From Actinotalea sp. Marseille-Q4924 (GTDB taxonomy: Bacteria > Actinomycetota > Actinomycetes > Actinomycetales > Cellulomonadaceae), in NCBI RefSeq assembly GCF_916618755.1, contig NZ_CAKAKB010000003.1, forward strand, positions 806,001-870,000: a stretch of DNA of 64,000 nucleotides, written 5' to 3'. The position numbers and the translations under genes were made by a program. Positions 7,236-20,693 of this stretch are shown piece after piece; the first letter of the stretch is position 1, and the number at the start of each line of letters is the position of its first letter. Under the pieces are notes generated by a model. That model saw only the letters and a list, made by a program, of their open reading frames with translations. It searched no databases and had not been told where the DNA came from.

Positions 7236-7262
7236 TCACTCGCCCGGGTGAGGTGCCGATAG
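7236..7262 (+). promoter_or_regulatory. Candidate WhiG/sigma-28-type promoter of pilB
   Basis: TCAC at 7236-7239, a 15-base spacer, then GCCGATAG at 7255-7262. The sigma-28/WhiG consensus is TAAA (TCAA in actinobacteria), about 15 bases, then GCCGATAA; seven of eight -10 positions match. It lies in the aroE-pilB gap, 61 bases before the pilB start. Three similar sites occur at the other transcription-unit starts of the pilus locus. Confidence 0.6.
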
Positions 7263-7323
7263 GTAGGGAGCGAGGTGCCGACGCGCCCCGCGCACCGCGG
7301 CAGACCCCCTGGGAAGGACACCC

Positions 7324-8997
7324 GTGAAGCAGCTCGGCGACATCCTGCTCGAAGAGGGGCTGGTCACGGAGGGCCAGCTCATGGCAGCCCTGGACGAGCA
7401 GGCGATGCGGGGGGAGTCCCTCGGTCGGGTGCTCGTCGAGATCGGGATGCTCACCGAGTCCCAGCTCGTGCGCGCGCTGGCGAACCAGGTCGGCATGGAG
7501 TTCGTCGAGCTGGCCGAGTTCCCGGTCGACCGCGCCGCCGTCGCGCTCCTCCCGGGCACGCTGTGCCGGCGCTACACCGCGCTGCCGGTCGGCATCCAGG
7601 ACGGGTACCTCGTGCTCGCGATGGCCGACCCGGGCAACGTGGTCGCCGTCGACGACGCGCGGACGCTGTCGGGCCTGCCGGTGCGCACCGTCGTCGCGAC
7701 GCACGACGACCTCAGCGCGGCGATCGACCGGTACTGCCGCGCCGACGACGAGATCGACGACCTGGCGTCCGCGTTCGAGGACGCCGCCGGGACGGACACG
7801 ACGGACCTGTCGCAGGTCGGGGACTTCGTCGACGACGACGCCCCGATCGTGCGGTTCGTCAACATCCTGGTGCAGCAGGCGATCCAGGACCGCGCGTCGG
7901 ACATCCACATCGAGCCGGCGGAGACGGACCTGCGCGTCCGGTACCGCATCGACGGCGTGCTGCACGAGATGCAGCGGGCGCCCAAGCAGATCCAGGGCGG
8001 CGTCATCTCCCGCCTGAAGATCATGAGCGACATCGACATCGCCGAGCGGCGCAAGCCGCAGGACGGCCGCATGTCGGTCACCCACAACGGCCGCAAGATC
8101 GACCTCCGCGTCGCGACGCTGCCCACGGTGTGGGGCGAGAAGGTCGTCATGCGCATCCTCGACAACTCCACGGCGAGCCTGGACCTGCGCGACCTGTCGT
8201 TCCTCGACGACAACCTCGAGGTCTACAAGGAGGCCTACACCAAGCCATACGGGATGATCCTCGTCACCGGGCCGACCGGCTCGGGCAAGTCCACGACGCT
8301 GTACGCGACGCTCAACGCGGTGTCCAAGCCGGAGATCAACGTCATCACCGTCGAGGACCCGGTCGAGTACCGGCTCGCGGGGATCAACCAGGTCCAGGTC
8401 AACCCCAAGGCGGGGCTCACGTTCGCCGGCGCGCTGCGGTCGATCCTGCGCTCGGACCCCGACGTGGTGCTGCTCGGTGAGATCCGCGACCACGAGACCG
8501 CCCAGATCGCGATCGAGGCGGCGCTCACCGGACACCTCGTGCTCTCGACCCTGCACACCAACGACGCGCCGAGCGCCGTGACCCGTCTGGTGGAGATGGG
8601 GATCGAGCCGTTCCTCGTCGGCTCGGCGCTGGACTGCGTGGTGGCCCAGCGCCTCGCGCGCCGGCTCTGCACCAAGTGCAAGGACCCGTACCAGCCGAGC
8701 GAGGTCGAGCTCATCTCCGCGCGGTTCCCGTGGAGCCCGGGGGAGGAGATCCCGACGCTGTTCCGTCCCGCGGGCTGCAGCTCGTGCTCGCGGACCGGCT
8801 ACAAGGGCCGGATGGCGATCCACGAGGTCATGCGCGTCACGGAGGACATCGAGCGGCACGCGGTCGCGCAGTCCTCCTCGGCGGACATCGGCCGGACGGC
8901 GCGCGAGCAGGGCATGATCACGCTCCGCAACGACGGCTGGACGAAGGTGCTGCTGGGGGACACCTCCATCGAGGAGGTCCTGCGCGTCGTGTCGTGA
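7324..8997 (+). CDS. pilB: Type IV pilus extension ATPase PilB
   Basis: PilB is the cytoplasmic hexameric ATPase that drives pilin polymerisation through the platform protein PilC. The 557-residue protein starts with an MshEN-type module: two LG...L...G......L...L..Q repeats at about residues 4-26 and 33-55, a module that binds c-di-GMP in MshE and some PilB proteins. The secretion ATPase core follows, with an ASDIHIEP Asp box region, Walker A GPTGSGKSTT (about residue 315), Walker B LLGEIRD and a His box (GHLVLSTLHTNDA). A tetracysteine zinc motif (CTKC near 448, CSSC near 484) separates PilB and GspE from PilT. GTG start after GGAAGG. The first arginine of the MshEN motif is Gln here. Confidence 0.95.
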   Translation: MKQLGDILLEEGLVTEGQLMAALDEQAMRGESLGRVLVEIGMLTESQLVRALANQVGMEFVELAEFPVDRAAVALLPGTLCRRYTALPVGIQDGYLVLAMADPGNVVAVDDARTLSGLPVRTVVATHDDLSAAIDRYCRADDEIDDLASAFEDAAGTDTTDLSQVGDFVDDDAPIVRFVNILVQQAIQDRASDIHIEPAETDLRVRYRIDGVLHEMQRAPKQIQGGVISRLKIMSDIDIAERRKPQDGRMSVTHNGRKIDLRVATLPTVWGEKVVMRILDNSTASLDLRDLSFLDDNLEVYKEAYTKPYGMILVTGPTGSGKSTTLYATLNAVSKPEINVITVEDPVEYRLAGINQVQVNPKAGLTFAGALRSILRSDPDVVLLGEIRDHETAQIAIEAALTGHLVLSTLHTNDAPSAVTRLVEMGIEPFLVGSALDCVVAQRLARRLCTKCKDPYQPSEVELISARFPWSPGEEIPTLFRPAGCSSCSRTGYKGRMAIHEVMRVTEDIERHAVAQSSSADIGRTAREQGMITLRNDGWTKVLLGDTSIEEVLRVVS

Positions 8998-9016
8998 GGC
9001 GCGTCGTACGGCTGCG

Positions 9017-9037
9017 CCGGACGGGTGCACCGTCCGG
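9017..9037. other. Hairpin in pilB-pilT gap
   Basis: CCGGACGG at 9017-9024 pairs with CCGTCCGG at 9030-9037 around a GTGCA loop. It begins 20 bases after the pilB stop and lies just before the candidate promoter at 9067. No T-tract follows, so it may act as a weak terminator or mRNA stabiliser for pilB. Confidence 0.45.
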
Positions 9038-9066
9038 TTCAGCCCGGTCATCCAGCGCCGGTGGGC

Positions 9067-9093
9067 TCAAGCCGGACGCGAAGAGGTCGATGA
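9067..9093 (+). promoter_or_regulatory. Candidate WhiG/sigma-28-type promoter of pilT
   Basis: TCAA at 9067-9070, exactly 15 bases, then GTCGATGA at 9086-9093. The -10 box differs from GCCGATAA at two positions. It lies 47 bases before the pilT start and could drive pilT-pilC separately from pilB. Confidence 0.5.
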
Positions 9094-9139
9094 GCACTGG
9101 GGGACGTCCGTCGGGACGACCACGATCGAGAGGGCCGCT

Positions 9140-10918
9140 GTGAACCAGTTCTTCCCCGAGCCGCAGGGCGGTGACCGCCCGGTTCCTCCGATGCCGCCTC
9201 TCGGCGGGCCGCAGGCCCAGCCCTTCGGTGGTCCGGTCACTGCTCCGGCCGGTGCCGCCCCCGTCGTCCCGACGCTCGAGCCGGCCGGCCCGCCCCCGGC
9301 GGCGCCGTACGGTCACAGCGCACCCGGTGCGGGGGAGGCGCCGTCGGCGTTCCCGACCCGCCGGTCGATGGCCAACGGGGCGCCTGCGGGTGGTGCCGGC
9401 GCGCCGCCCCAACCGCCGACGGCGTCCTTCGCGCCCGGAGCGCCGGTGGCCCGCCCCGTCGGTGCTGCCGGCGGCCAGCCCCCCGCGCCGCCGCGGCCGG
9501 TGGGTCCGCCCGGACCGCAGCCGACGTTCTCCGAGGCGCCCCGCGCCGTGGCCGGTCCGCCGGCACCACCGGTCGTCCCGTCCGCTGCGCGTCCCGCCGC
9601 CGGACCGGCCTCGGTGAGCCAGCTGCAGCGCGCCTCGGGCATCCCGACCGCCGAGGGCGGACCACGGCAGTCGCAGGACATCCCGCAGCGGGCTCCCGCC
9701 AAGGAGCGCAGCTCGCGCCTCGGTGTGGCCCTGTCGCAGGACGGTGACCTCGACCTCGACCTGGCGCTCAAGAAGATGATCGAGGTCGGCGCGTCCGACC
9801 TCCACGTCACCGCCGGTGCTCCGCCGAACGTCCGGCTCGACGGCGGCCTCAAGCCGCTCGAGGGATTCCCGAGCATGCTGCCGGACGCGATCCAGCGGAC
9901 GCTCTACGGGATCATCAGCCAGCGCCAGCGTGAGACGTTCGAGGCGAACCTCGAGCTCGACTTCGCGTACGCGGTGCGCGGCGTCGCCCGGTTCCGCGTG
10001 AATATGTACCAGCAGCGCGACTCGCTCGGTGCGGCCTTCCGCGTCATCCCCTACGAGATCAAGCCGCTCGAGGCGCTGGGCGTGCCGCCGATCGTCGCGA
10101 ACTTCGCCACCATGGCGCGCGGTCTGGTGCTCGTCACGGGCCCGACGGGCTCGGGCAAGTCCACGACGCTCGCCGCGATCATCGACCTGGCGAACCGCAC
10201 GCGGTCGGACCACATCATGACCGTCGAGGACCCGATCGAGTTCCTCCACCGGCACAAGAAGTCGCTCATCAACCAGCGCGAGGTCGGGGCGGACACCCAC
10301 TCCTTCGCCAACGCGCTCAAGCACGTGCTGCGGCAGGACCCGGACATCATCCTCGTCGGCGAGATGCGCGACCTGGAGACCATCTCCGTGGCGCTGACGG
10401 CCGCCGAGACCGGTCACCTCGTGTTCGCGACCCTGCACACGCAGGATGCCGCGCAGACGATCGACCGCGTCATCGACGTGTTCCCGTCCCACCAGCAGGC
10501 GCAGGTGCGCACACAGCTCGCCGGGGCCATCCAGGGTGTCGTCTGCCAGACGCTGTGCAAGCGGGCGGACGGTCCCGGCCGTGCGGTCGCGACCGAGGTC
10601 CTCATCGCGACGCCAGCGATCCGCAACCTCATCCGCGAGGGCAAGACGCACCAGATCTACTCGTCCATGCAGGCCGGTGCCCAGCTGGGCATGCACACGA
10701 TGGACCAGCACCTCGCGGAGCTGGTGAAGAACGGGAAGATCACGTACGAGCAGGGGCTCGAGAAGTGCCACCACGCCGCCGACTTCAACCGCCTGACGGG
10801 CCGTTTGGGTGACGGCGGCGGCGGGACGTCGCTCGGCGCCATGAGCGGCGGAGACCCGCTCGGCGCGGTCAGCCTCGCCGCCGGCAACCAGGCGCAGTAC
10901 ACGATGGGGAGCCACTGA
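9140..10918 (+). CDS. pilT: Type IV pilus retraction ATPase PilT with long Pro-rich N-terminal extension
   Basis: PilT powers pilus retraction. The ATPase begins at about residue 202 (DLALKKMIEVGASDLHVTAG) and contains Walker A GPTGSGKSTT (near 334), Walker B ILVGEMRDLET, GHLVFATLHTQDA and the C-terminal AIRNLIREGKTHQI segment that is diagnostic for PilT. Residues 1-200 are a Pro/Ala/Gly-rich, probably disordered extension not present in the usual roughly 350-residue PilT. GTG at 9140 is the first start after the candidate promoter; an internal start near residue 180 cannot be excluded, but the extension reads in frame with ordinary codon use. The stop overlaps the pilC start by one base. There is no tetracysteine motif, consistent with PilT rather than PilB. 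Confidence 0.93.
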   Translation: MNQFFPEPQGGDRPVPPMPPLGGPQAQPFGGPVTAPAGAAPVVPTLEPAGPPPAAPYGHSAPGAGEAPSAFPTRRSMANGAPAGGAGAPPQPPTASFAPGAPVARPVGAAGGQPPAPPRPVGPPGPQPTFSEAPRAVAGPPAPPVVPSAARPAAGPASVSQLQRASGIPTAEGGPRQSQDIPQRAPAKERSSRLGVALSQDGDLDLDLALKKMIEVGASDLHVTAGAPPNVRLDGGLKPLEGFPSMLPDAIQRTLYGIISQRQRETFEANLELDFAYAVRGVARFRVNMYQQRDSLGAAFRVIPYEIKPLEALGVPPIVANFATMARGLVLVTGPTGSGKSTTLAAIIDLANRTRSDHIMTVEDPIEFLHRHKKSLINQREVGADTHSFANALKHVLRQDPDIILVGEMRDLETISVALTAAETGHLVFATLHTQDAAQTIDRVIDVFPSHQQAQVRTQLAGAIQGVVCQTLCKRADGPGRAVATEVLIATPAIRNLIREGKTHQIYSSMQAGAQLGMHTMDQHLAELVKNGKITYEQGLEKCHHAADFNRLTGRLGDGGGGTSLGAMSGGDPLGAVSLAAGNQAQYTMGSH

Positions 10919-12153
10919 TGGCGACGGCGACGGCCACCAAGACCTTCGAGTACTCCGTCCGGGACCGCGCGGGGAAGGTCGTCAAGGGCCGGATCGAGGC
11001 CAACAACCAGGCCGCCGTCGCGAACCGCCTGAAGACGATGGGCATGGCGCCCATCGCCATCACCGAGGTGGCGTCAACCGGTCTGCAGAGGGAGCTCTCG
11101 ATCCCGGGCCTCACGGACCGGATCGGCCTCAAGGACCTCGCCATCATGGCGCGCCAGATGGCCACGATGATCAACTCTGGCCTGTCGCTACTCCGGGCGC
11201 TGTCGATCCTCGCGGACCAGACCGAGAACAAGGCGCTCGCCAAGATCCTCCAGCAGGTGCGCAACGACGTCGAGACCGGCCTGGCGCTGTCCAACGCCAT
11301 GGCGAAGCACCCGAACGTCTTCCCGCCGCTCATGGTAAACATGATCAAGGCGGGCGAGATCGGCGGGTTCCTCGACCAGGTCCTCCTGTCCATTGCCAGC
11401 AACTTCGAGGCCGAGGTCAAGCTGCGGGGCAAGGTCAAGTCGGCCATGACGTACCCGGTCGTCGTTTTCGTCATCGCGATCCTTGCCGTGACGGGAATGC
11501 TGCTGTTCATCGTGCCGGTCTTCGCGGGCATGTTCTCGTCCCTCGGCGGTGAGCTGCCGATGCCGACGCGCATCCTCATGATGCTGTCGACGGCGATGAA
11601 GTTCACCGCTCCGATCACCGCGATCGCGCTCATCGTCTTCGCCGTCTGGTGGGGTAAGCACAAGAACGACGAGGGCGTCAGACGGCGCGTGGACCCTTTC
11701 AAGCTCAAGGTGCCAGTCTTCGGTTCGCTCTTCCAGAAGATCGCCATCTCGCGTTTCACTCGGAATTTCGGCACGATGATCCACGCCGGCGTGCCGATCC
11801 TTCAGGCGCTCGACATCGTCGCTGCCACGTCTGGGAACTACGTGGTCGAGAGGGCCGTCAGAGCCGTCCAGGAGTCCGTGAGGACAGGTCAGTCGCTCAG
11901 CGGCCCACTGACCCAGCACCCCGTGTTCCCACCGATGGTCGTGCAGATGATGGCCGTCGGCGAGGACACCGGTGCCCTCGACACGATGCTGCACAAGATC
12001 TCCGAGTTCTACGACCAGGAGGTCGAGGCGACGACGGAACAGCTCACGTCGCTCATTGAGCCGATCATGATTGTCGTCATTGGCAGCATTATCGGCGCTA
12101 TGATCATCGCTATGTACATGCCGATCTTCGGAGTGTTCGAACTGATCGGCTAG
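10918..12153 (+). CDS. pilC: Type IV pilus inner-membrane platform protein PilC
   Basis: PilC is the polytopic platform that couples the PilB/PilT motors to the pilus base. The 411-residue protein has two GspF domains (about residues 70-195 and 275-395), each with the MARQMATMINSGLSLLRAL / TRNFGTMIHAGVPILQAL pattern, and three membrane helices near residues 178-200, 228-245 and 380-405. It overlaps pilT by one base and is therefore translationally coupled to it. Base composition in the 3' half is somewhat less GC-biased than in the flanking housekeeping genes. Confidence 0.95.
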   Translation: MATATATKTFEYSVRDRAGKVVKGRIEANNQAAVANRLKTMGMAPIAITEVASTGLQRELSIPGLTDRIGLKDLAIMARQMATMINSGLSLLRALSILADQTENKALAKILQQVRNDVETGLALSNAMAKHPNVFPPLMVNMIKAGEIGGFLDQVLLSIASNFEAEVKLRGKVKSAMTYPVVVFVIAILAVTGMLLFIVPVFAGMFSSLGGELPMPTRILMMLSTAMKFTAPITAIALIVFAVWWGKHKNDEGVRRRVDPFKLKVPVFGSLFQKIAISRFTRNFGTMIHAGVPILQALDIVAATSGNYVVERAVRAVQESVRTGQSLSGPLTQHPVFPPMVVQMMAVGEDTGALDTMLHKISEFYDQEVEATTEQLTSLIEPIMIVVIGSIIGAMIIAMYMPIFGVFELIG

Positions 12154-12619
12154 TCCCCGTGGGATCCGCGCTGACGTCTCGGAGACTTTCTGCCTCGTAA
12201 GTGCGGCGGATGAAGAGACGTGCCGCCGTTGAGACGCGTGGGTCTGCCGCCTTCGCACCGTGGAGCCGCCCGGATTAGTCCGTTCGACATGACCCCCAGC
12301 GCCACTCCCGCTGTGCGAGGCGTCTCGGGCTGCTAGAGCAGCAACCGCTCCGTCACTTCCTGCGTGGATGCAGATCCTGCGGCGGCGCGTGCGGGGGATC
12401 GACCGGACGCGAAGCAGCAATACACGTGCGCGATCGGCAGCACGGTCAGCTACAGCGACCCGGACGCGCCGTGCAGCGAGCGCAAGAGCTGTTCACGTGC
12501 GGCCTCAGCGCAGGGCCAATCGACGCGGCGCTACTTGATGTCTGCTCACAGAAGTTGGACGAACGTCCCATGACGTTGGTCCGCTCGGGTGAAACCCGGG
12601 TGAAGAGTCCGCAATGGAC
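12154..12619. other. Long gap between pilC and the major pilin, no gene supported
   Basis: These 466 bases precede the pilin promoter. Short open frames at 12364-12573 and 12426-12686 give no recognisable protein and cross the promoter region. Visible structure includes CGGCGG...CCGCCG at about 12207-12230, a GCTGC-TAGA-GCAGC hairpin at 12329-12342, and two adjacent hairpins just before the pilin promoter: CGGGT-GAA-ACCCG at 12586-12598 and GAGTCC-GCAAT-GGACTC at 12605-12621. GGGTGAA is repeated at 12587 and 12598. The stretch could hold regulatory sites, a small RNA or a pilin-gene remnant; I cannot tell which. Confidence 0.5.
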
Positions 12620-12646
12620 TCAAGAGCCAGCCGGGCACCCCGATGT
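12620..12646 (+). promoter_or_regulatory. Candidate WhiG/sigma-28-type promoter of the major pilin
   Basis: TCAA at 12620-12623, exactly 15 bases, then CCCGATGT at 12639-12646. Transcription would begin near 12652 and give a leader of about 58 bases containing a GCCGA-gtcc-TCGGC hairpin (12667-12680) and the ribosome binding site GGGGAG. The -35 element overlaps the right arm of the GAGTCC/GGACTC dyad. Confidence 0.55.
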
Positions 12647-12709
12647 ACTTCACGTAGTCACCTACCGCCGAGTCCTCGGCACCTGACACAGCACACGAAG
12701 GGGAGCGTC

Positions 12710-13141
12710 ATGATCGCTCGTATTCACAAGTCCATGCGCGAGAAGGACCAGGGCTTCACCCTGATCGAGCTGCTCGTGGTGATGATCATCATCGGCATCC
12801 TCGCCGCGATCGCCATCCCGGTCTTCCTCAGCCAGCGCGAGAAGGCCCGTGACACCTCCACCAAGGCCGACCTGTCGACCGTCGGCAAGGAGATCGCTGC
12901 TTACTACGTCGAGCCGATCGGCGACCTCGTCGTGACGGCAAACGCCACCACCGTCACGCTGACGAACGGCACAAACGTCTCCACGGTGGACATCAGCGAG
13001 GGTACGGTCTTCGACGCGACGACCACGTACACCCCGGCTCAGTCGACCACGTGGTGTGTTGACGCGATCAACACCAACGGCGACGTCCAGGACTACAGCT
13101 ACGCGGCCAACGCCGGCCTCACGCCTAACGACGTCTGCTGA
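12710..13141 (+). CDS. Major type IV pilin (type IVa-like)
   Basis: A 143-residue prepilin. The class III leader is 15 residues ending in KDQG, cleaved before FTLIELLVVMIIIGILAAIA; Glu+5 and the first hydrophobic helix are intact. A 90-residue globular domain follows, rich in Thr, Ala and Asn, with a C-terminal Cys pair (WCVD near residue 120 and the terminal Cys) that should form the D-region disulfide. ATG at 12710 is chosen over the in-frame ATG at 12614 because GGGGAG precedes it and it gives the normal short leader. It would be processed by the peptidase encoded at 17235 and polymerised by PilB and PilC. Lower GC and richer Thr/Asn use than the housekeeping genes are usual for pilins. 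Confidence 0.95.
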   Translation: MIARIHKSMREKDQGFTLIELLVVMIIIGILAAIAIPVFLSQREKARDTSTKADLSTVGKEIAAYYVEPIGDLVVTANATTVTLTNGTNVSTVDISEGTVFDATTTYTPAQSTTWCVDAINTNGDVQDYSYAANAGLTPNDVC

Positions 13142-13156
13142 TAGGTAGATCCAACC

Positions 13157-13193
13157 CGGGCGGGGTGGGGGCCACTGGCCCCCACCCCGCCCG
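13157..13193 (+). terminator. Long hairpin between major pilin and minor pilin genes
   Basis: A perfect 17-bp stem: CGGGCGGGGTGGGGGCC at 13157-13173 pairs with the complementary arm at 13177-13193 around an ACT loop. It begins 15 bases after the pilin stop codon. No T-tract follows. It may terminate most transcripts, or protect the pilin mRNA 3' end, so that the abundant pilin is made in excess over the downstream minor pilins. Confidence 0.7.
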
Positions 13194-13226
13194 AGCATCC
13201 AGACAGACATCGATGAGAGGTGCAAA

Positions 13227-15023
13227 GTGCGGCATCTTCGGGTGAGCGAGCGGTCCCGCGCAGATGACGGGTTTACGCTCATCGAGGTGCTTCTCGCCAT
13301 GTTCATCGTGGCAGTGGTCATGGTGTCGTTGATCGGTGTCTTGATCTCGAGCCTTTCCACGGTGACGCACGCGCGCCAGCGTCAGACCGCAACGGCTCTT
13401 GCAACCCAGGCGCTCGAGCGACTCCGCGCACTTCCGTACGACGAGGTGACGCAGCCGGCGGCCGGAAGCGTCGACGCTGCGCTCGAGTACGTGGCCACTG
13501 TCAGCGGCGTAGTTCGTTTCCAGCCCACGGCGGTGCTTCCGGGCGTTGACGAGGCTCTCGTGGTCAACAGCCGCTCAGGGCGAGTTCAGACGCAGGCCGT
13601 CGACGGAGTGACCTACAAGATCCAGACCTACGTGACGAAGCCGGCCGCTACGCCTGCCGGGCAACAGACCTTCAATCTGACTGCGCTCGTCTCCTGGTCC
13701 AGCTCGGTCACCAACGGCACGCGCACCACGGCACAACGGTCCGTGACGTATTCGCCGGCTGGCTGCCTCTCGACGGCGCAGAGCCCCTTTGCAGCACCCT
13801 GCCAGGCTTACTTCACCGCCCAGGCAGGCACCGTGCTCGGGGGTATCTCGGTCGCCAATGCTGTCGACTCGAAGCTTCCCGTCGAAGGCTTCGGCAGCGG
13901 CACCCTGCTCGACCTCACGCTGAGCGGGGTGAACTCCAACCTCTTGCTGGAGCAGACGGCGAGCGCGACCTCGAACGCGCAGACTTCAAGTGCCCGGTCT
14001 GACAGTGCGGCGAGCGGCGGCCAGATCGCTGTCGCAGCCGTGGACTCCGACCCGTCGTCCGTCGAGGGTCAGATCTCCGGCAGCGGGACATCCGGACAGA
14101 CGAGTGGAGCCCAGTCCCTCACCGGCGCCGCAGGCACGCTTTCCCTGAAGCCGTCGACGGCGGACTCCGGCCGCGCGGACGCAGCAATCCAGGCCACCAC
14201 AACGGAGTGCATCGGGGCCTCAGGTGTCGCCCTGGCAACCGGTCCGTCGGCGGCACTGCGGCCCTGCGCCTCGTCGCGCATCACTCCGAGCGGCGGCGAT
14301 GCGTCCCTCGATTGGACTCCCCCGAGCGGCGGCGCCATGACCCTCGCTCAGCTGACCGAGACCGGGTCCGTGTGGCGATCTGTTGCGGCCAACCTGACGA
14401 GCTCGAACGCCGGCGCCTGCATCCAGGGCTCCGGGCCAACCGTCCTGGGCTGCGCGCACGCCGCCGCCAGCCGTTCGTATGCAGACGTTCTGGTCGGTGG
14501 CACCGGGACTCCAGAGGCCTTCCCAACGGGCTGGAACACGGCGACCAATCCCGGGGCGATCGTGCGGCTCACCGGCTTCGCAGAGTCGGCGACCGCTGAG
14601 GATGGAACCGGCGCGGGGGCGCCCACGTACTCACGCACAGGCTCCCTGTTGGTCTGGAACGGCAGCACGCACCAGGTCATCGATGTGACTGCCCCCCCGT
14701 CGGTGCCTGTCGACATCCCAGCGACGTCCTTCAAGTACGGGTCCTACTACCTGACGTACGAAGGGACCGTCTCGGTCGAGCCGCCCAGCACGTCGCGCAC
14801 ACCGGCGGCCCGCTCAGGCAACGCCCTCACGGACTGCAAGGCCGAGGCGTGTGTCAGCCGGGTCAGTGGGGGCGCCGGCGTTGTCGTGAACCTTGAGGTG
14901 ACGATCACGGCCGTCCCGTATGACCCGCTGTCTGTCGCCCCACCCCTCGGGCGCTTCTCCATGGGCCTGAACCTCGGTGGGCTCGTCGCGCAGGCGTCGT
15001 ACAAGGCGGCCCCTAATGCGTGA
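13227..15023 (+). CDS. Large PilV-like minor pilin / pilus tip protein
   Basis: A 598-residue protein with a 15-residue leader ending in ADDG, cleaved before FTLIEVLLAMFIVAVVMVSL, with Glu+5 intact. Ordinary PilV proteins are 150-200 residues; here about 560 residues follow the helix. The middle (about residues 235-320) is a Ser/Ala/Gly/Thr-rich repetitive stretch (SNAQTSSARSDSAASGG), flanked by segments that look globular and contain several Cys residues. Such large prepilins usually sit at the pilus tip and may be adhesins; that role is inferred. GTG start after GAGAGG; the stop overlaps the next gene by 8 bases. No domain is recognised in the C-terminal part. Confidence 0.8.
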   Translation: MRHLRVSERSRADDGFTLIEVLLAMFIVAVVMVSLIGVLISSLSTVTHARQRQTATALATQALERLRALPYDEVTQPAAGSVDAALEYVATVSGVVRFQPTAVLPGVDEALVVNSRSGRVQTQAVDGVTYKIQTYVTKPAATPAGQQTFNLTALVSWSSSVTNGTRTTAQRSVTYSPAGCLSTAQSPFAAPCQAYFTAQAGTVLGGISVANAVDSKLPVEGFGSGTLLDLTLSGVNSNLLLEQTASATSNAQTSSARSDSAASGGQIAVAAVDSDPSSVEGQISGSGTSGQTSGAQSLTGAAGTLSLKPSTADSGRADAAIQATTTECIGASGVALATGPSAALRPCASSRITPSGGDASLDWTPPSGGAMTLAQLTETGSVWRSVAANLTSSNAGACIQGSGPTVLGCAHAAASRSYADVLVGGTGTPEAFPTGWNTATNPGAIVRLTGFAESATAEDGTGAGAPTYSRTGSLLVWNGSTHQVIDVTAPPSVPVDIPATSFKYGSYYLTYEGTVSVEPPSTSRTPAARSGNALTDCKAEACVSRVSGGAGVVVNLEVTITAVPYDPLSVAPPLGRFSMGLNLGGLVAQASYKAAPNA

Positions 15024-15699
15024 CAACTGGCGCCGACGTCGACCGCAGGGCGACGCCGGCATGACCCTGACGGAGCTGCTCGTCTCGATGATCGTCTTCT
15101 CGATCGCCATCGGAATGGTGTACTCCGCCGTCATCCTCACCATGCAGTGGAGCCGCGAGACGCAGCAAGCCGCTGATGCCGTCACGGAGTTGCGCCAGGG
15201 TCTCGCGCAGATCGACCGGCAGGTCCGGTCCGGGAACGTGCTCTTCAGCCCAGAGGACGAGGACGCATGGCTCACTACGTGCCAAGACGGCGGCGTCGGC
15301 AGCAACGCGGGCACGTGCATGCGGATCTTCACCCAGTCCAACGGCGACCAGAAATGCGTCCAGTGGCAGATCGGCCCCGATCCCGCTGATGCCACCAAGA
15401 GGGTCCTCCAGACGCGCAGCTGGGAGACCAATTGGCAGACCGGTGGCTCCGTCTCAGCCTGGAACGTCGTCGCCCGGGACATTAACTTCGTGATGGGCAC
15501 GACCCCCATGCCGTTCACTCTTGAGGGCGCGTCAACGCCGTACAAGGAGCGGATGCTTCGCGTTCACCTCGAGGTCATGGACGAACGCCAGAATCTGCCC
15601 GTGGAGATCGACTCGTCGCTGACCGGACGAAACACCAGTTACGGCTATGACAGCGGGCAGTGCGAGCCCGTTCCTGGCGCCACCGTCGTTGTGCCGTGA
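15016..15699 (+). CDS. PilW-like minor pilin
   Basis: A 227-residue prepilin-like protein. The leader is again 15 residues and ends in GDAG, but the first mature residue is Met rather than Phe (MTLTELLVSMIVFSIAIGMV); Glu+5 is present. The globular part has Cys pairs (TTCQDGG with GTCMRIF, and a late QCEPV) and a repeated Trp pattern (WQIG, SWETNW). It starts at an ATG inside the end of the preceding gene, indicating coupled translation. PilW-type proteins prime pilus assembly together with PilV and PilX; this role is inferred from position and N-terminus. Confidence 0.82.
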   Translation: MRDNWRRRRPQGDAGMTLTELLVSMIVFSIAIGMVYSAVILTMQWSRETQQAADAVTELRQGLAQIDRQVRSGNVLFSPEDEDAWLTTCQDGGVGSNAGTCMRIFTQSNGDQKCVQWQIGPDPADATKRVLQTRSWETNWQTGGSVSAWNVVARDINFVMGTTPMPFTLEGASTPYKERMLRVHLEVMDERQNLPVEIDSSLTGRNTSYGYDSGQCEPVPGATVVVP

Positions 15700-15732
15700 C
15701 CACCTCCTCGTCTCAGAAGAAGGGCTAGACCG

Positions 15733-17232
15733 ATGATCGCTACCGTGCGGCGGTACGTCCGGAGTCGAACGGGCGGGGACGACGGCATCGCCATGATCGT
15801 ATCGATTTCATTGATGGGGCTCGTAGCCATCCTGGTCCTGGCTCTCGTTTCCGTGGCAATCGGTGAAGCTCGCGGCACAGGCCGCGACCGCCAGCGCTCC
15901 GTGTCCGTCATGAGCGCGGAAGGAAGGGTGGACTCGCTGCTTTCGGTCATTCAGTCCACCGCGCCTGCTGTTCTCCCTTGCGGTGACCTGGCGGCCGTCA
16001 ACCAGTCCGTGGTCTCGGACCAACTAGCCGTAGGGTCGAAGGTCACCTACTTCACTGACGCCGGGATTGAGGTCCCATGTGCGTCGGTCGCCACCGCGGC
16101 GAATATCCGGCAGGCAAAGATCAGTGCGACGACGAAGGCCACAGCGATTTCTGGGACGCTGCCGGCTCAGCGCACGGTCGAGACGCTCGTGCGGCTCACG
16201 CCCTCCTACGGCAACGACCTCGACAAGGCGATCTTCGGGAACGCCGGCGTGGTCGTCCAGAACAACGGCACCATCACCACCCCGGACGGTCAGCCCAACG
16301 CCGACGTGTACAGCAACGGGAATGTCATCTGCGACGGCAACCAGACGTACCAAGGATCGATTCAGGCGAAGGGGTCCATCACGCTGAGCACAGGGTCGTC
16401 CTGCGTCGTGGCGGTCGACGCCCACGCCGGCCTGGGCATCACGGCCAACGATCCGTCGGCCGTCATCAACGGTCGAGCACTCGCCGCCGGTGGCAACATC
16501 GTCATCAAGGGCCACCTCGGGCAGTACGCCCAGGCGAAGTCGCCATTCACGGCAACGGGTTCCGGGTGCACGCCGGCAACCAAGTGCCAGACCGTGGCGG
16601 ACGTGCCCATGCCGCCGTCCGAGACGTTCCCCGAGATCACCTGGACCAAGGTCGGTTCTGCGTGGCAGAGCGAGCTGGGCTTCACGAACATCGTCACCGA
16701 CCCCGTGACGTGCGGGGTCCCGGGCCCCGGCGACAAGACCGACAAGGTCGGAGAGTGGATCAAAAACAACGCCTCGTCTCTGCCCGGGAACACGGTGCTC
16801 ATCTCGACGTGCGCGAACCCCATCTACATGTCCGGCGTCGACCTGTCGTTCAACGCCAACTTCGCCGTCTTCGCCAAGGGCGGGATCAAGCTCGAGGGGA
16901 ACCCGATCGTCAAGTCCACCTCGACGACCGCGCGCAACCTCTACCTCATGCATCCGTACGACTCCACCTGCACCGCCGGCGTCCCGGGGATCGACATCGG
17001 CAACAACGTCGCCTTCACCACGACGGCGAACGTCATGCTGTACTCGCCGTGCGACATTCAGAAGCGGAATCAGACGGACGTCATGGGGCAGATCTACTCC
17101 GGCGGCACCGCGTACCTCAGCAACAAGACAGCGATGACGTTCGTCATGCTGCCCATGGCCGGGGTCGACGTCGTGACGTCGACCATCGAGTACTACAACC
17201 TCGAGATCCTCTACAAGCGGGAGAACCTCTAA
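15733..17232 (+). CDS. PilX-like pilus assembly protein with repetitive extracellular domain
   Basis: A 499-residue protein. An 18-residue basic leader ends in GGDDG before IAMIVSISLMGLVAILVLAL, in the position of PilX_N-type proteins, which lack the strict FTLIE motif; no Glu+5 is present. After the helix and an amphipathic stretch, residues 160-420 contain short Asn/Gly/Val-rich turns (VVVQNNGTITTPDGQ, ADVYSNGNVICDGN) that suggest a parallel beta-helix or similar repeat fold. It starts at ATG 15733, 34 bases after the previous gene. It is the third minor-pilin-like gene in a row. Surface exposure at the pilus tip is inferred. Confidence 0.72.
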   Translation: MIATVRRYVRSRTGGDDGIAMIVSISLMGLVAILVLALVSVAIGEARGTGRDRQRSVSVMSAEGRVDSLLSVIQSTAPAVLPCGDLAAVNQSVVSDQLAVGSKVTYFTDAGIEVPCASVATAANIRQAKISATTKATAISGTLPAQRTVETLVRLTPSYGNDLDKAIFGNAGVVVQNNGTITTPDGQPNADVYSNGNVICDGNQTYQGSIQAKGSITLSTGSSCVVAVDAHAGLGITANDPSAVINGRALAAGGNIVIKGHLGQYAQAKSPFTATGSGCTPATKCQTVADVPMPPSETFPEITWTKVGSAWQSELGFTNIVTDPVTCGVPGPGDKTDKVGEWIKNNASSLPGNTVLISTCANPIYMSGVDLSFNANFAVFAKGGIKLEGNPIVKSTSTTARNLYLMHPYDSTCTAGVPGIDIGNNVAFTTTANVMLYSPCDIQKRNQTDVMGQIYSGGTAYLSNKTAMTFVMLPMAGVDVVTSTIEYYNLEILYKRENL

Positions 17233-17234
17233 CC

Positions 17235-18041
17235 ATGGGGGTTCTCGACATGGCGGTCGTCTCCGTTGCAGGCCTCGCGGGTCTCGGTGTGGTCGGGCTG
17301 CTCATCGGCTCGTTCCTCAACGTGGTCGTGTGGCGTGTACCCCGCGGTGGATCCGTCGTCGCGCCACCCAGCGCCTGTCCGTCGTGCGACACGCGGATCA
17401 GGCCGCGGGACAACGTGCCCGTCGTGTCGTGGTTGGTCCTCGGTGGCCGGTGCCGGGACTGCTCGACGCCGATCTCCGCCCGGTACCCGCTGGTCGAGGC
17501 CGCCACGGGCGTGCTGTTCCTGCTCGTCGGTCTGCGGTTCGGTCCTTCGTGGGCTCTGCCGGCGTTCCTCTACCTCGCCGCGATCGCCGTGGCGCTGGCG
17601 CTCATCGACCTCGACACGCACCGCCTGCCCGACGCCATCGTCCTGCCCGCGTACCCCGTGACAGCGGCGCTTCTCGTCGTCGCCAGCTGGGGCGAGCAGG
17701 ACTGGCCGGCCCTCCTCCGCACCGGGATCGGGGGAGCGGCGCTGTTCGCCGTCTACTTCGCGCTCGCCGTTGCGAAACCGGGCGGCATGGGTTTCGGCGA
17801 CGTCAAGCTCGCCGGAATTCTCGGCGGTGCACTGGCCTGGGTCGGATGGGGTGCCCTCGTCGTCGGAGGATTCGCCGCCTTCCTGCTTGGCGGGCTGTTC
17901 TCCATCGGCCTGCTCGTCACGAAGCGCGCTGGTCGCGCGTCAGGCATCCCGTTCGGCCCCTGGATGCTCCTGGGCGCCGCCGTCGGTGTTGCCGTCGGTG
18001 AACAGCTCTGGACCGCGTACCTACGCCTCTTGGGCGTCTGA
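17235..18041 (+). CDS. pilD: Prepilin peptidase / N-methyltransferase (A24 family)
   Basis: The enzyme removes class III leaders from prepilins and methylates the new N-terminal residue. The 268-residue protein has the N-terminal methylase domain with two cysteine pairs (CPSC at 48-51, CRDC near 73-76) and the GSFLNVVVWRVPRG motif, then the peptidase helices with both catalytic aspartates, in LIDLDTHRLPD and GFGDVKL. ATG at 17235 is three bases after the preceding stop; the long open frame upstream is the PilX-like gene in another frame. As I recall, Mycobacterium tuberculosis keeps an orphan A24 peptidase next to aroE, which would fit loss of a pilus locus once present at this site. Confidence 0.95.
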   Translation: MGVLDMAVVSVAGLAGLGVVGLLIGSFLNVVVWRVPRGGSVVAPPSACPSCDTRIRPRDNVPVVSWLVLGGRCRDCSTPISARYPLVEAATGVLFLLVGLRFGPSWALPAFLYLAAIAVALALIDLDTHRLPDAIVLPAYPVTAALLVVASWGEQDWPALLRTGIGGAALFAVYFALAVAKPGGMGFGDVKLAGILGGALAWVGWGALVVGGFAAFLLGGLFSIGLLVTKRAGRASGIPFGPWMLLGAAVGVAVGEQLWTAYLRLLGV

Positions 18042-18053
18042 CGCCGGAAGTCC

Positions 18054-18081
18054 TCAAGACGGACCGACGTACACCCGATAA
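18054..18081 (+). promoter_or_regulatory. Candidate WhiG/sigma-28-type promoter of pilM-pilN-pilO
   Basis: TCAA at 18054-18057, 16 bases, then CCCGATAA at 18074-18081, a seven-of-eight match to GCCGATAA. It lies 40 bases before the pilM start, in an 80-base gap after the peptidase gene. Confidence 0.6.
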
Positions 18082-18121: not shown

Positions 18122-19171
18122 GTGGCCAAGTCAGGAGTCATCGGGCTCGACATCGGCACGACCAGTGTCCGTGCGGCCGAGGTCGTGGGCGGCAGGGGTC
18201 GCCAGGGCGGCACGCTCGTGCGGTACGGCGAGGTGGCGCTGCCACCGGGCGCCGTGCGGGACGGCGAGGTCGCCGACCAACCGACCGTGACCGCGGCCCT
18301 CAAGCAGCTGTGGGCGGGAGCGAAGTTCAGCACCCGACAGGTCAACATCGGCATCGGGAACCAGCGGGTCGTCGTCCGCGAGATGGAGCTGCCGTGGATG
18401 CCCCTGCCCCAGCTCAAGGCATCCCTGCCGTTCCAGGTGCAGGAGATGCTGCCCATGTCGACCGACGAGGCGCTGCTGGACTTCTACCCGACCGGTGAGG
18501 TGACGACCGCCGCAGGTCGGATGGTCCAGGGGATGCTCGTCGCGGCGACCAAGGACACGGTGCGTGCCAACGTCATGGCCGTCGAGTCAGCGGGGCTGCG
18601 TCCGCAGCTGGTCGACCTGAGCCCCTTCGCGCTCATGCGCGCCGTGGTCCACGGCGAGATGGCGGGTCGGACCGTCGCCGTGGTCGACATCGGGGCCCGG
18701 ATCACGCAGGTCATCATCGCGGCCGAGGGCACGCCGCGCTTCGTGCGCGTCCTCCCCTCAGGCGGCGGCAACGTCACCGACGCCGTCGCCGGCGCCCTCG
18801 GGTGCTCGGCGCCGGACGCCGAGGCTATCAAGCGCGAGGTCGGCATCGGCTTCGCGGTGCCCCCAGAGCGGACCGCGGCCGCCGAGGCCATCAGCAACGT
18901 CGTGCGTCCTCTCGTCGAGGCCGTCCGCAACACGTTCGTCTACTACGCCAGCAACCACCCCGGCGCCGGCATCGACATGGTCGTGCTCACCGGCGGCGGG
19001 TCACAGCTGCCGGGTCTCGGCCAGTACCTGGCCAGCGCCAGCCGCCTCGCGGTCTCGATGGCGGACCCGCTGAGCATCCTGCGCGTCGGCAAGGGTCTCG
19101 GCATCGACCCGAGCCGCCACGCCACCTTCCCCGCGATGCCTCTCGGCCTGGCCTACGGAGTCGCAGCATGA
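18122..19171 (+). CDS. pilM: Type IV pilus assembly protein PilM (actin-like)
   Basis: PilM is a cytoplasmic actin/FtsA-fold ATP-binding protein that docks on the N-terminus of PilN and links the motor to the alignment complex. The 349-residue protein has the phosphate 1 loop VIGLDIGTTSVRAAEV, the second phosphate loop VVDIGARITQVII and the adenosine motif VVLTGGGSQLPGL. The GTG at 18122 follows GGGAGGAGG. The pilN start overlaps its end by four bases. Confidence 0.94.
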   Translation: MAKSGVIGLDIGTTSVRAAEVVGGRGRQGGTLVRYGEVALPPGAVRDGEVADQPTVTAALKQLWAGAKFSTRQVNIGIGNQRVVVREMELPWMPLPQLKASLPFQVQEMLPMSTDEALLDFYPTGEVTTAAGRMVQGMLVAATKDTVRANVMAVESAGLRPQLVDLSPFALMRAVVHGEMAGRTVAVVDIGARITQVIIAAEGTPRFVRVLPSGGGNVTDAVAGALGCSAPDAEAIKREVGIGFAVPPERTAAAEAISNVVRPLVEAVRNTFVYYASNHPGAGIDMVVLTGGGSQLPGLGQYLASASRLAVSMADPLSILRVGKGLGIDPSRHATFPAMPLGLAYGVAA

Positions 19172-19884
19172 CCGCCACCCTGGAACGGCCCGCCGCCCCG
19201 AGCGGGGGCAAGAAGAACCGTTCGCGCTCGGGTGGCCTGGTGTCGACCCTGCCGCAGGTCAATCTGCTCCCGCCGGAGGTCTACGCCGCCAGGACGCTCA
19301 CCCGGGTCAAGCGTTGGCTCGCCGTCGTCGTCGTGCTGGCCCTGATCATCGCTGCAGGGATCGTGGCGCTCAGCGTCATGACCCAGCAGGCGGTGGACGA
19401 GGAGCTCGCCGCCGAGCAGCTCCGTACCGAAGCGCTCCTGGAGGAGCAGAGGCAGTACGCCGAGGTGCCCGTCGTCCTGTCGCAGCTCGACAGCATCCGT
19501 ACGGCGCGGGAGCTCGGCATGTCCACCGAGGTGCTGTGGCGTGACTACATCTCCGCGATCGCCGCCTCCGCGCCCGACAGCGTCAGCATCGAGACGGTCA
19601 GCATCCTCGCGGCGTCGCCCATGGAGGTGCCGCCGGCACCCTTGACGCCGCTCGACGAGGCCGCCGTGGGGACCATCACCTTCACGGCGAACTCCCTCAC
19701 TGTCCCCGACACGGCCCAGTGGGTCGAGGCGCTCGGCAGCGTCACAGGGCTCACGAACGCATGGTTCAGCTCGGCGACCATCACCGAGGACGAAGAGCTC
19801 GCGTACTACACCGTCACCGGGACGATCCAGATCACCGAGGACGCCCGCGCGAACCGCTTCGCCGCCACCGAGGGAGAGGGCTGA
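19168..19884 (+). CDS. pilN: Type IV pilus assembly protein PilN
   Basis: PilN is a bitopic membrane protein whose cytoplasmic tail binds PilM. The 238-residue protein carries the diagnostic QVNLLPPEV motif at residues 31-39, one membrane helix (about residues 50-72), a coiled-coil (TQQAVDEELAAEQLRTEA) and a ferredoxin-like extracellular domain. ATG at 19168 lies inside the end of pilM, and its stop overlaps the pilO start by one base. The PilM-binding tail is longer than usual because of a basic, Ser/Gly-rich lead of 29 residues. Confidence 0.92.
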   Translation: MTATLERPAAPSGGKKNRSRSGGLVSTLPQVNLLPPEVYAARTLTRVKRWLAVVVVLALIIAAGIVALSVMTQQAVDEELAAEQLRTEALLEEQRQYAEVPVVLSQLDSIRTARELGMSTEVLWRDYISAIAASAPDSVSIETVSILAASPMEVPPAPLTPLDEAAVGTITFTANSLTVPDTAQWVEALGSVTGLTNAWFSSATITEDEELAYYTVTGTIQITEDARANRFAATEGEG

Positions 19885-20693
19885 TGACCGGATCACGCAC
19901 CGTCGGCTGGGTCGTCGGCACCGTCGTCCTCGTCCTGGCGATCCTCGCCGGCACCTGGTTCCTCCTCGCGGCTCCTCGCTTCGAGGCGGCGGCGGAGACG
20001 ATGCTCGAGGTCGAGAACTCCCGCTTCCAGAACGACCTGCTCCAGACGCAGAACGCCCAGCTCAAGGCCGACTTCGCGAACCTCGAGGCGTACAAGGCGG
20101 AGGTGGCGACGCTGCAGCAGCAGATCCCCGGCACCGCCGCCCTCCCGGCCTACGCCCGGACGGTCGCGGATCTCGCAACCGCGAACGACGTCGCGCTCCT
20201 GGAGGTCTCACCGGGCGCCGCCACCGTCTTCACCGTCCCCGTGCCGGTCGTCGAGGCGCCGCCCGCACCCGTGGAGGGTGCGGAGGGTGAGGTCAGCACG
20301 GAGTCGGAGACCGGCACGATCGCCGACGCCGGCCTCGGCTCGAACGAGCCGGCGGCACCCGCCGGCCCGGTCGCGCCCGAGGGGCTCGTCGCCGTTCCCT
20401 TCACCTTCAAGGTGCTCGGGACCTACGACGCGACGAACGCGTTCCTCGCCGCACTCCAGACGGGCACCGAGCGTCTCTTCCTGGTGACCCAGGTGGACGG
20501 CACCAGTCAGCAGGAGGCTGAGGCGACGCCGTCGAAGCCGGCGATCGCGGAGGGCGACGTCGAGCTCACGGTGACCGGGTACACGTACGTGCTCCCCGAG
20601 CTGGCGCCCGTCCAGGCACCGGTCGAGGGCGAGCAGCCTGCGCCCGCGCCCCTGCCGAGCACCACGCGGAACCCGTACGCGCCGCTCGACTGA
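19884..20693 (+). CDS. pilO: Type IV pilus assembly protein PilO
   Basis: PilO pairs with PilN in the inner-membrane alignment complex. The 269-residue protein has a membrane helix (about residues 8-30), a coiled coil (residues 40-76, rich in Gln/Asn/Leu) and a C-terminal ferredoxin-like domain that includes VPFTFKVLGTYDATNAFLAAL. A Pro/Glu/Ala-rich linker interrupts the domain near residues 118-165. It is the last gene of the pilus locus and ends at a strong terminator. No pilP or pilQ follows, which fits a monoderm cell. Confidence 0.9.
   Translation: MTGSRTVGWVVGTVVLVLAILAGTWFLLAAPRFEAAAETMLEVENSRFQNDLLQTQNAQLKADFANLEAYKAEVATLQQQIPGTAALPAYARTVADLATANDVALLEVSPGAATVFTVPVPVVEAPPAPVEGAEGEVSTESETGTIADAGLGSNEPAAPAGPVAPEGLVAVPFTFKVLGTYDATNAFLAALQTGTERLFLVTQVDGTSQQEAEATPSKPAIAEGDVELTVTGYTYVLPELAPVQAPVEGEQPAPAPLPSTTRNPYAPLD

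Follow-up and report, generated by a model that had tools for sequence, protein, structure and literature searches.

Type IV pili have been placed under the sigma factor WhiG in Rubrobacter, where a (RsiG)2-(c-di-GMP)2-WhiG switch, which depends on cyclic di-GMP (c-di-GMP), controls them and the transcription starts have been mapped (PMC8325347). In Streptomyces, the WhiG-RsiG pair is a sporulation switch, and RmdB, a GGDEF-EAL protein, uses its GGDEF domain to bind WhiG and holds RsiG off it (PMC13232838). Actinoplanes missouriensis, which lacks RsiG, has both the pili and the flagella of its zoospores under FliA-family control (cited in PMC8325347). The present analysis deals with a type IV pilus (pil) locus in a stretch of 64,000 nucleotides of Actinotalea sp. 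Marseille-Q4924 (positions 806,001 to 870,000 of contig NZ_CAKAKB010000003.1, hereafter the window), in which four promoter-like sites precede pilB, pilT, pilA and pilM. These sites are interpreted as promoters read by RNA polymerase with WhiG, which would transcribe the pilus locus, and a probability of about 0.83 is given to this reading.

The locus resembles that of Rubrobacter in the putative WhiG-type promoters at pil transcription units and before a gene for a c-di-GMP enzyme, and in the presence of an RsiG-family gene in the genome; the starts are mapped in Rubrobacter, whereas the promoters described here are known from the sequence only. The -35 box is TAAA there and TCAAG here. Moreover, the RsiG relative found here is divergent, has degenerate motifs and seems to have a WhiG-type promoter of its own, and residue K57 of WhiG is replaced. 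With Streptomyces, this genome shares a WhiG, assigned by family model and neighbouring genes, and a membrane GGDEF-EAL protein in the proposed circuit, whose likeness to RmdB is one of domain type; the targets here would be pili instead of sporulation, and the motifs of RsiG are not kept. Sigma-28-type control of type IV pili would be common to Actinoplanes missouriensis and this organism, whereas Actinoplanes sporulates with flagellated zoospores and a family search found no flagellin match in the present genome. For Rubrobacter, it is already known that WhiG controls pili together with RsiG and c-di-GMP, and the new element would be the variant with a divergent RsiG in a Cellulomonas-like family. 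Among the matches listed in searches of open-access papers (supplements excluded), none described such a circuit for this family or an RsiG relative whose motifs are lost.

An earlier note, made from the sequence of this stretch, had described the four sites as WhiG/sigma-28-like promoters, had named the Rubrobacter link, and had suggested scanning the genome with a position matrix, looking for whiG/fliA and rsiG homologues and comparing the same gaps in related genomes. The Rubrobacter link is in print (PMC8325347), and the four-site observation is confirmed: TCAA or TCAC and a spacer of 15-16 bases can be read directly at all four places, each 40-65 bases before a start codon (Table 1). The 15-16 base spacing is kept in all four sites, and the -10 box has the CGAT core. 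Compared with the consensus TAAA/GCCGATAA, there are 3 mismatches in the pilB and pilT sites, 4 in the pilA site and 2 in the pilM site. The pilB site differs from the others in having TCACT in place of TCAAG. Taken singly, each of the sites appears weak, being only a fair match to the consensus.

The evidence that carries the reading is comparative. Loci of relatives were found through PilM, which gave a match in 39 of 59 genomes, the present one included. The set comprised 40 stretches, 38 of them intended as pil loci and 2 as flagellar/sigma loci, and was completed by seven named loci that the pilin had brought up. L091, L092, L093, L016 and L017 were left out of the pilM/pilA/pilB site count because they are not, or not usefully, pil loci, and L013 and L090 are outside the 39 pilM loci because no pilM start was obtained; in this count the WhiG label was also given, by assumption, to the named loci L012-L015 and L018. 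The strict motif was defined as TCAAG-N15/16-YCGAY and sought within 250 bases of pilM, and the pilB form as T[AC][AC]N-N15/16-GCCGATA[GAC].

The strict motif precedes pilM in 37 of the 39 loci, window included; of the other two, L026 carries a TCAT variant and L081 (genome G044) shows no motif. It also lies upstream of pilA in 24/37 loci and in the pilB-pilT gap in 23/35. The pilT site was sought in the gap after pilB, as the long, variable N-terminus of PilT makes extrapolated starts fall too far upstream; among these 35 gaps are those of the window, of L074 (WhiG-less) and of L016 (partial), as well as L079, L082 and L083, in which the match to pilB runs into pilT, and they omit L026, L035 and L042, where the stretch starts near pilT. 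Concerning pilB, the strict form is found in 4/32 loci, and the strict or the pilB form in 18/32. Among the control genes the strict form occurs once in 213 cases (aroE 1/32, aroC 0/29, pilC 0/36, pilD 0/38, pilN 0/39, pilO 0/39), and either form before the six genes in 3/213; dinucleotide shuffles gave a motif rate of 0.05-0.4%. Hence, the motif is kept in the gaps that the earlier note had wished to see compared, and its conservation in relatives makes the sites more than chance despite their weak single matches. It does not reflect a general conservation of the sequence either, since the spacers are merely 31-35% identical between loci. In the two WhiG-less pil loci (G026, G057), the motif is absent before pilM (0/2).

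The genome encodes a WhiG that passes the family model (Table 1), so the sigma factor that the reading needs is present. Its best match among solved structures is the WhiG of Streptomyces venezuelae (6pfj). A tyrosine recombinase (PF00589) precedes the gene, and an M23 peptidase (PF01551) follows it, with a frame judged by eye to be rpsB coming next; in Streptomyces the order is xerC-whiG-M23-rpsB. The local gene order around whiG is kept across actinobacteria (PMC4255298). With a threshold of 250 bits to NF004935 for calling WhiG in the 59 genomes (the next match has 153 bits), 37 genomes have it, 32 of them over the curated cut-off. A pilM match is found in 36 of these 37 and in 3 of the 22 WhiG-less genomes (G026, G057 and, weakly, G032; Fisher p 2e-11), and flagellin in 32/37 and 5/22, respectively (p 2e-6). 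When flagellin is held fixed, WhiG still tracks pilM: among the five genomes with flagellin and no WhiG, only G032 has a (weak) pilM match, and four of the five WhiG genomes without flagellin have pilM.

The scan of the present genome was done with fixed patterns in place of a position matrix. The strict pattern gave 88 matches versus 19 for the control, which is not matched for coding bias because the surplus lies largely in coding frames. Forty-nine of the 88 were examined (46 other loci and three in the window), including all 23 with a YCGAT ending; 39 of the YCGAC type lie outside this set. Coding or non-coding position was judged from the G+C content by codon position and from frame reading, not from annotation (by eye for L135). 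Most of the examined matches are coding. Of the YCGAT-ending ones, six are non-coding and immediately precede a gene, three of them being the pilT, pilA and pilM sites and the other three standing before a GGDEF-EAL gene, a LuxR-type gene and the RsiG-like gene. Furthermore, TMAN-N15/16-GCCGATA has six matches in the genome, one of them the pilB site, versus none for the backward control; among the rest are matches before an RDD-FHA gene and an AAA-ATPase gene, and none of them was counted into the regulon. The GGDEF-EAL product could be a c-di-GMP cyclase or phosphodiesterase. Its strict site is present in 13 of 14 cases (the own gene and 13 close matches of at least 719 bits, positions from tblastn), the miss being G058, and in 1/6 of the more distant matches. 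The LuxR-type gene is possibly a further member of the regulon. No site was seen upstream of whiG itself in the 439 bases read.

With regard to the anti-sigma factor, no canonical RsiG match was obtained in the genome, and this part of the expectation did not stand; the search led instead to a divergent RsiG relative with degenerate c-di-GMP motifs, which is probably the anti-sigma of WhiG. The gene reaches 27.2 bits with PF22802 (cut-off 27 bits) in the genome search and 25.4 bits as the 139-residue protein. PF22802 gives at least 46 bits in nine genomes, all outside the own family (G037, G040, G043, G045, G049, G050, G051, G053 and G058), and is weak within it. The weak matches that share the pattern WRR..(R)ARxD make up a single coherent family of about 125-145 residues (alignment A1, 19 sequences), whose profile exceeds 70 bits in 28 genomes and, at E 0.01, has no match in any of the 22 genomes that lack WhiG. 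Canonical and RsiG-like proteins together occur in 36/37 WhiG genomes versus 0/22 of the others. At E 0.1, PF22802 also gives weak matches of 15-18 bits in six WhiG-less genomes (G020, G024, G025, G032, G035, G046); L119 (G032), a 760-codon coiled-coil-like frame, and L121 (G035) were kept out of A1. A gene of G037 (G037:C1:228003-228362) bridges both groups, with 49.8 bits to PF22802 and 73.9 to A1. G037 holds three RsiG-family genes (G037:C1:228003, 418869, 2743813), two with a second PF22802 match (twin-motif) and one RsiG-like, and canonical and RsiG-like forms can thus coexist in one genome. A separate search of the own genome for canonical RsiG with a DNA motif pattern gave five matches versus seven for the backward control, and L021, the match that was followed, proved to be a coiled-coil frame with an M23 peptidase at its end, so that a canonical RsiG by this route was rejected.

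The RsiG-like genes carry the motif too. Upstream of them, TCAAG-N15/16-nCGA is present in 26 of the 27 loci read and the strict form in 15/27 (27 of 30 loci, as L199, L201 and L203 failed the helix pattern), and the site ends 42-67 bases before the chosen start codon in 18/19. The nine canonical rsiG genes have no such upstream site except one weak match, L098.

The c-di-GMP motif of RsiG is E(X)3S(X)2R(X)3[QH](X)3D (PMC8325347). Where this motif has E, S, R, Q and D, helix 1 of the own RsiG-like protein has R, S, R, R and D. Among the 19 aligned proteins, the R and D of helix 1 are kept in all, R stands at the Q place in 19/19, the E place holds R, K, L or V, and S is found in 2/19; in helix 2, E is found in 2, S in 4, R and Q in none and D in 4. 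In S. venezuelae WhiG, the residues K57, G61 and R62 touch c-di-GMP and are reported as conserved in RsiG-binding WhiGs (PMC8325347). The own WhiG has T, N and R at these positions, and the contact set is not conserved. K57 is a lysine in 9/9 genomes with canonical RsiG and is replaced in 28/28 without it (T in 25, S in G022 and G034, A in G029), with R62 kept in 26 of the 28; G044, which belongs to another family, also has T. Since the genomes are related, this represents one or a few events and not 28. It appears that the RsiG-like protein no longer has the usual site for c-di-GMP, its degenerate motifs make control by the known mechanism doubtful, and the WhiG circuit is probably uncoupled from direct c-di-GMP sensing.

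The alternative is that WhiG drives the circuit and the RsiG-like protein still binds c-di-GMP through an altered motif, leaving a Rubrobacter-type switch intact. R36 and D44, at the places of the two guanine-reading residues of the motif, are invariant in the 19 RsiG-like proteins, as are an arginine at the glutamine place and a glutamate one residue off; the regulon would include a GGDEF-EAL gene with both signature motifs, and WhiG keeps R62 in 26/28. However, both the arginine and the glutamine of the second-helix motif are missing from all 19, and K57, a guanine contact in the S. venezuelae structure, is replaced in all 28 genomes without canonical RsiG. A retained switch is regarded as less likely than not.

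Under the preferred reading, in which WhiG controls the pili, this sigma-28-type factor would transcribe the pil locus from four starts, serving pilB, pilT-pilC, pilA and pilM onward, and the same type of promoter would drive the membrane GGDEF-EAL gene, the LuxR-type gene and the RsiG-like gene. The RsiG-like protein would bind WhiG as its anti-sigma, c-di-GMP no longer bridging the pair, and active WhiG would make its own inhibitor in a negative feedback. The flagellar FliA-FlgM feedback of enteric bacteria likewise has an anti-sigma gene transcribed by its own sigma factor; the candidate here is RsiG-like and not FlgM, and flagellar export is not expected without flagellin. The GGDEF-EAL protein may provide a release step, because RmdB, its Streptomyces counterpart in domain type, binds WhiG and keeps RsiG off. 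Additionally, the c-di-GMP domain of PilB itself would leave the second messenger a post-translational route. The WhiG-pilus circuit apparently recurs here as an autoregulated variant of the Rubrobacter one.

A fuller picture may be drawn: WhiG would now be a dedicated, flagellum-independent pilus sigma; its RsiG-descended anti-sigma would be free of c-di-GMP and made by WhiG as feedback in a FlgM-like role, maybe relieved by the co-regulated GGDEF-EAL protein in the manner of RmdB; and the loss of the RsiG motifs and the replacement of K57 would be one rewiring. This extension is tentative, and its odds are put somewhat below even. On the main reading, a sigma factor best known for triggering sporulation in Streptomyces appears to switch on type IV pilus genes in this organism and its relatives, which is a testable answer, for one family, to how WhiG could run pili apart from flagella. 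The pair would also be a natural experiment in which a c-di-GMP-bridged sigma/anti-sigma couple loses the second messenger and keeps the pairing, with a partner derived from RsiG whose divergence makes it easy to overlook.

Another explanation is that the sites are read not by WhiG but by the second, FliA-like sigma of the genome, an apparent orphan after the loss of flagella. This sigma is retained with a score under the family cut-off (Table 1), and no flagellar family was found in the 12 scanned frames, the sigma itself included, of the 19.5-kb stretch L092; the frames around it are metabolic or unmatched. The flagellin promoters of the relatives are sigma-28-like as well. In the upstream regions of flagellin genes from 20 genomes (L240-L259), a sigma-28-like pair with spacer 15 is present in 17, the -10 box is GCCGATCA in 6/20, TCAA occurs in 4/20 (one of them TCAAG), and 4/20 end in GATAG, a frequent ending of the pil sites. 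Nevertheless, these promoters favour another form, TCA[TC] with spacer 15 in 13/20, and flagellin and pilus motifs tend to differ, with some overlap in form. G019 and G022, which have WhiG and no FliA-like match among those of 98-153 bits listed, keep the strict site at pilM, and the WhiG-less G021, G035, G048 and G052, with a FliA-like sigma and flagellin, have no pilM match. Control by the FliA-like sigma is thus given only a small chance.

A very small one is left for the motif being a conserved operator, or the target of another sigma of the genome, and not a sigma-28-type promoter. The 24 Sigma70_r4 matches of the genome mean that further sigmas exist. Two boxes spaced by 15-16 bases, a CGAT core and a position 40-65 bases before start codons nevertheless fit the sigma-28 consensus (PMC8325347), and both WhiG-less pil loci lack the motif before pilM. 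Finally, chance matches, for which the individual weakness of the sites and the 88 strict matches of the genome, mostly coding among those examined, might speak, are already refuted by the comparative counts against controls and shuffles, along with the six-to-none result of the TMAN pattern.

Several observations weigh against the WhiG reading of the four sites, which as first proposed is nonetheless supported; of the refuting outcomes listed in the earlier note, none of those open to checking turned up. Only the pilM site is within the two-mismatch limit used for Rubrobacter, all four being 2-4 mismatches from the textbook consensus. The strict motif is missing before pilA in 13/37 loci, and G044 (L081) has WhiG and no motif before pilB, pilT, pilA or pilM. 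Most of the examined strict matches of the genome lie in coding frames, and the relaxed pattern TCAAG-N15/16-nCGA occurs in 52 of 600 tiles of 330 bases, true sites included. Flagellin also correlates with WhiG, less than pilM does; the own genome keeps a FliA-like sigma beside WhiG in spite of having no flagellin match; and flagellin and pilus motifs overlap. G004, whose assembly is fragmented, has WhiG and gave no pilM match, and in G029 WhiG is not accompanied by an RsiG relative. Direct comparison of profiles ties the RsiG-like family weakly to RsiG: hhalign of A1 against RsiG covers 113 columns with E 0.0036 and a probability of 9%, and an A1 search of the Protein Data Bank finds no RsiG match at E 10, whereas the canonical alignment A2 does find it. 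The tie rests on the helix and the bridging G037 sequence. Moreover, the compared genomes are related, and the counts are not independent events.

Table 1. Putative promoters and genes of the pilus locus (window positions) and candidate partners elsewhere in the genome (genome:contig:positions).
Feature	Position	Strand	Remarks
Putative WhiG/sigma-28-type promoter, pilB	7236..7262	+	TCAC-N15-GCCGATAG; ends 61 bases before pilB start codon (7324)
Putative WhiG-type promoter, pilT-pilC	9067..9093	+	TCAA-N15-GTCGATGA (TCAAG); ends 46 bases before pilT start codon (9140)
Putative WhiG-type promoter, probable major pilin gene pilA	12620..12646	+	TCAA-N15-CCCGATGT (TCAAG); ends 63 bases before start codon (12710)
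Putative WhiG-type promoter, pilM and probably pilN-O	18054..18081	+	TCAA-N16-CCCGATAA (TCAAG); ends 40 bases before start codon (18122)
pilB, extension ATPase with MshEN / c-di-GMP-binding N-terminal domain	7324..8997	+	PF00437, PF05157
pilT, retraction ATPase	9140..10918	+	TIGR01420 489.6 bits, cut-off 319.1
pilC, platform protein	10918..12153	+	PF00482
pilA, probable major pilin	12710..13141	+	PF07963, TIGR02532 prepilin methylation motif
Minor pilin-like gene	13227..15023	+	PF07963
Minor pilin-like gene	14977..15699	+	PF07963
Frame with prepilin peptidase PilD as C-terminal part	16077..18041	+	PF06750, PF01478, residues 405-610; true start unsettled
pilM	18122..19171	+	PF11104; TIGR01175 162.6 bits, cut-off 133
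pilO-like gene, downstream of pilM	19719..20693	+	PF04350 weak, 17.8 bits, under cut-off 22
whiG	G000:C3:299284-300144		NF004935 365.8 bits, cut-off 343; between xerC-type recombinase gene and rpsB
Second, FliA-like sigma	G000:C6:368231-368869		TIGR02479 153 bits, under cut-off 189.6; in L092 (G000:C6:360000-379500)
RsiG-like gene	G000:C1:347079-347495	minus	PF22802 27.2 bits; between Crp-type regulator and endonuclease III-type gene
Membrane GGDEF-EAL gene	G000:C3:763340-765619		Strict site upstream; GGDEF and EAL signature motifs, hydrophobic N-terminal part
LuxR-type regulator gene	G000:C3:738270-738824 (L171:1771-2325)	minus	Strict site 53 bases before start

The pilus locus is flanked by YceG and shikimate dehydrogenase frames upstream and by chorismate synthase, shikimate kinase and dehydroquinate synthase downstream. 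The best match of PilB is TIGR02538, at 646.6 bits slightly under the cut-off of 675.65, and NF053729 (c-di-GMP_motif) is over its cut-off; the MshEN domain and the MshE-type c-di-GMP motif of this protein could be a second entry of c-di-GMP into pilus control. Regarding the FliA-like sigma, a flagellin-type pair, TCATC...GCCGATA, lies just before an M23-peptidase frame elsewhere in the genome (L236, G000:C3:161827-161852) and is a possible target of it. Directly 3' of pilA, a long G+C-rich inverted repeat, noticed by eye at 13157-13193, could limit read-through into the minor pilin genes.

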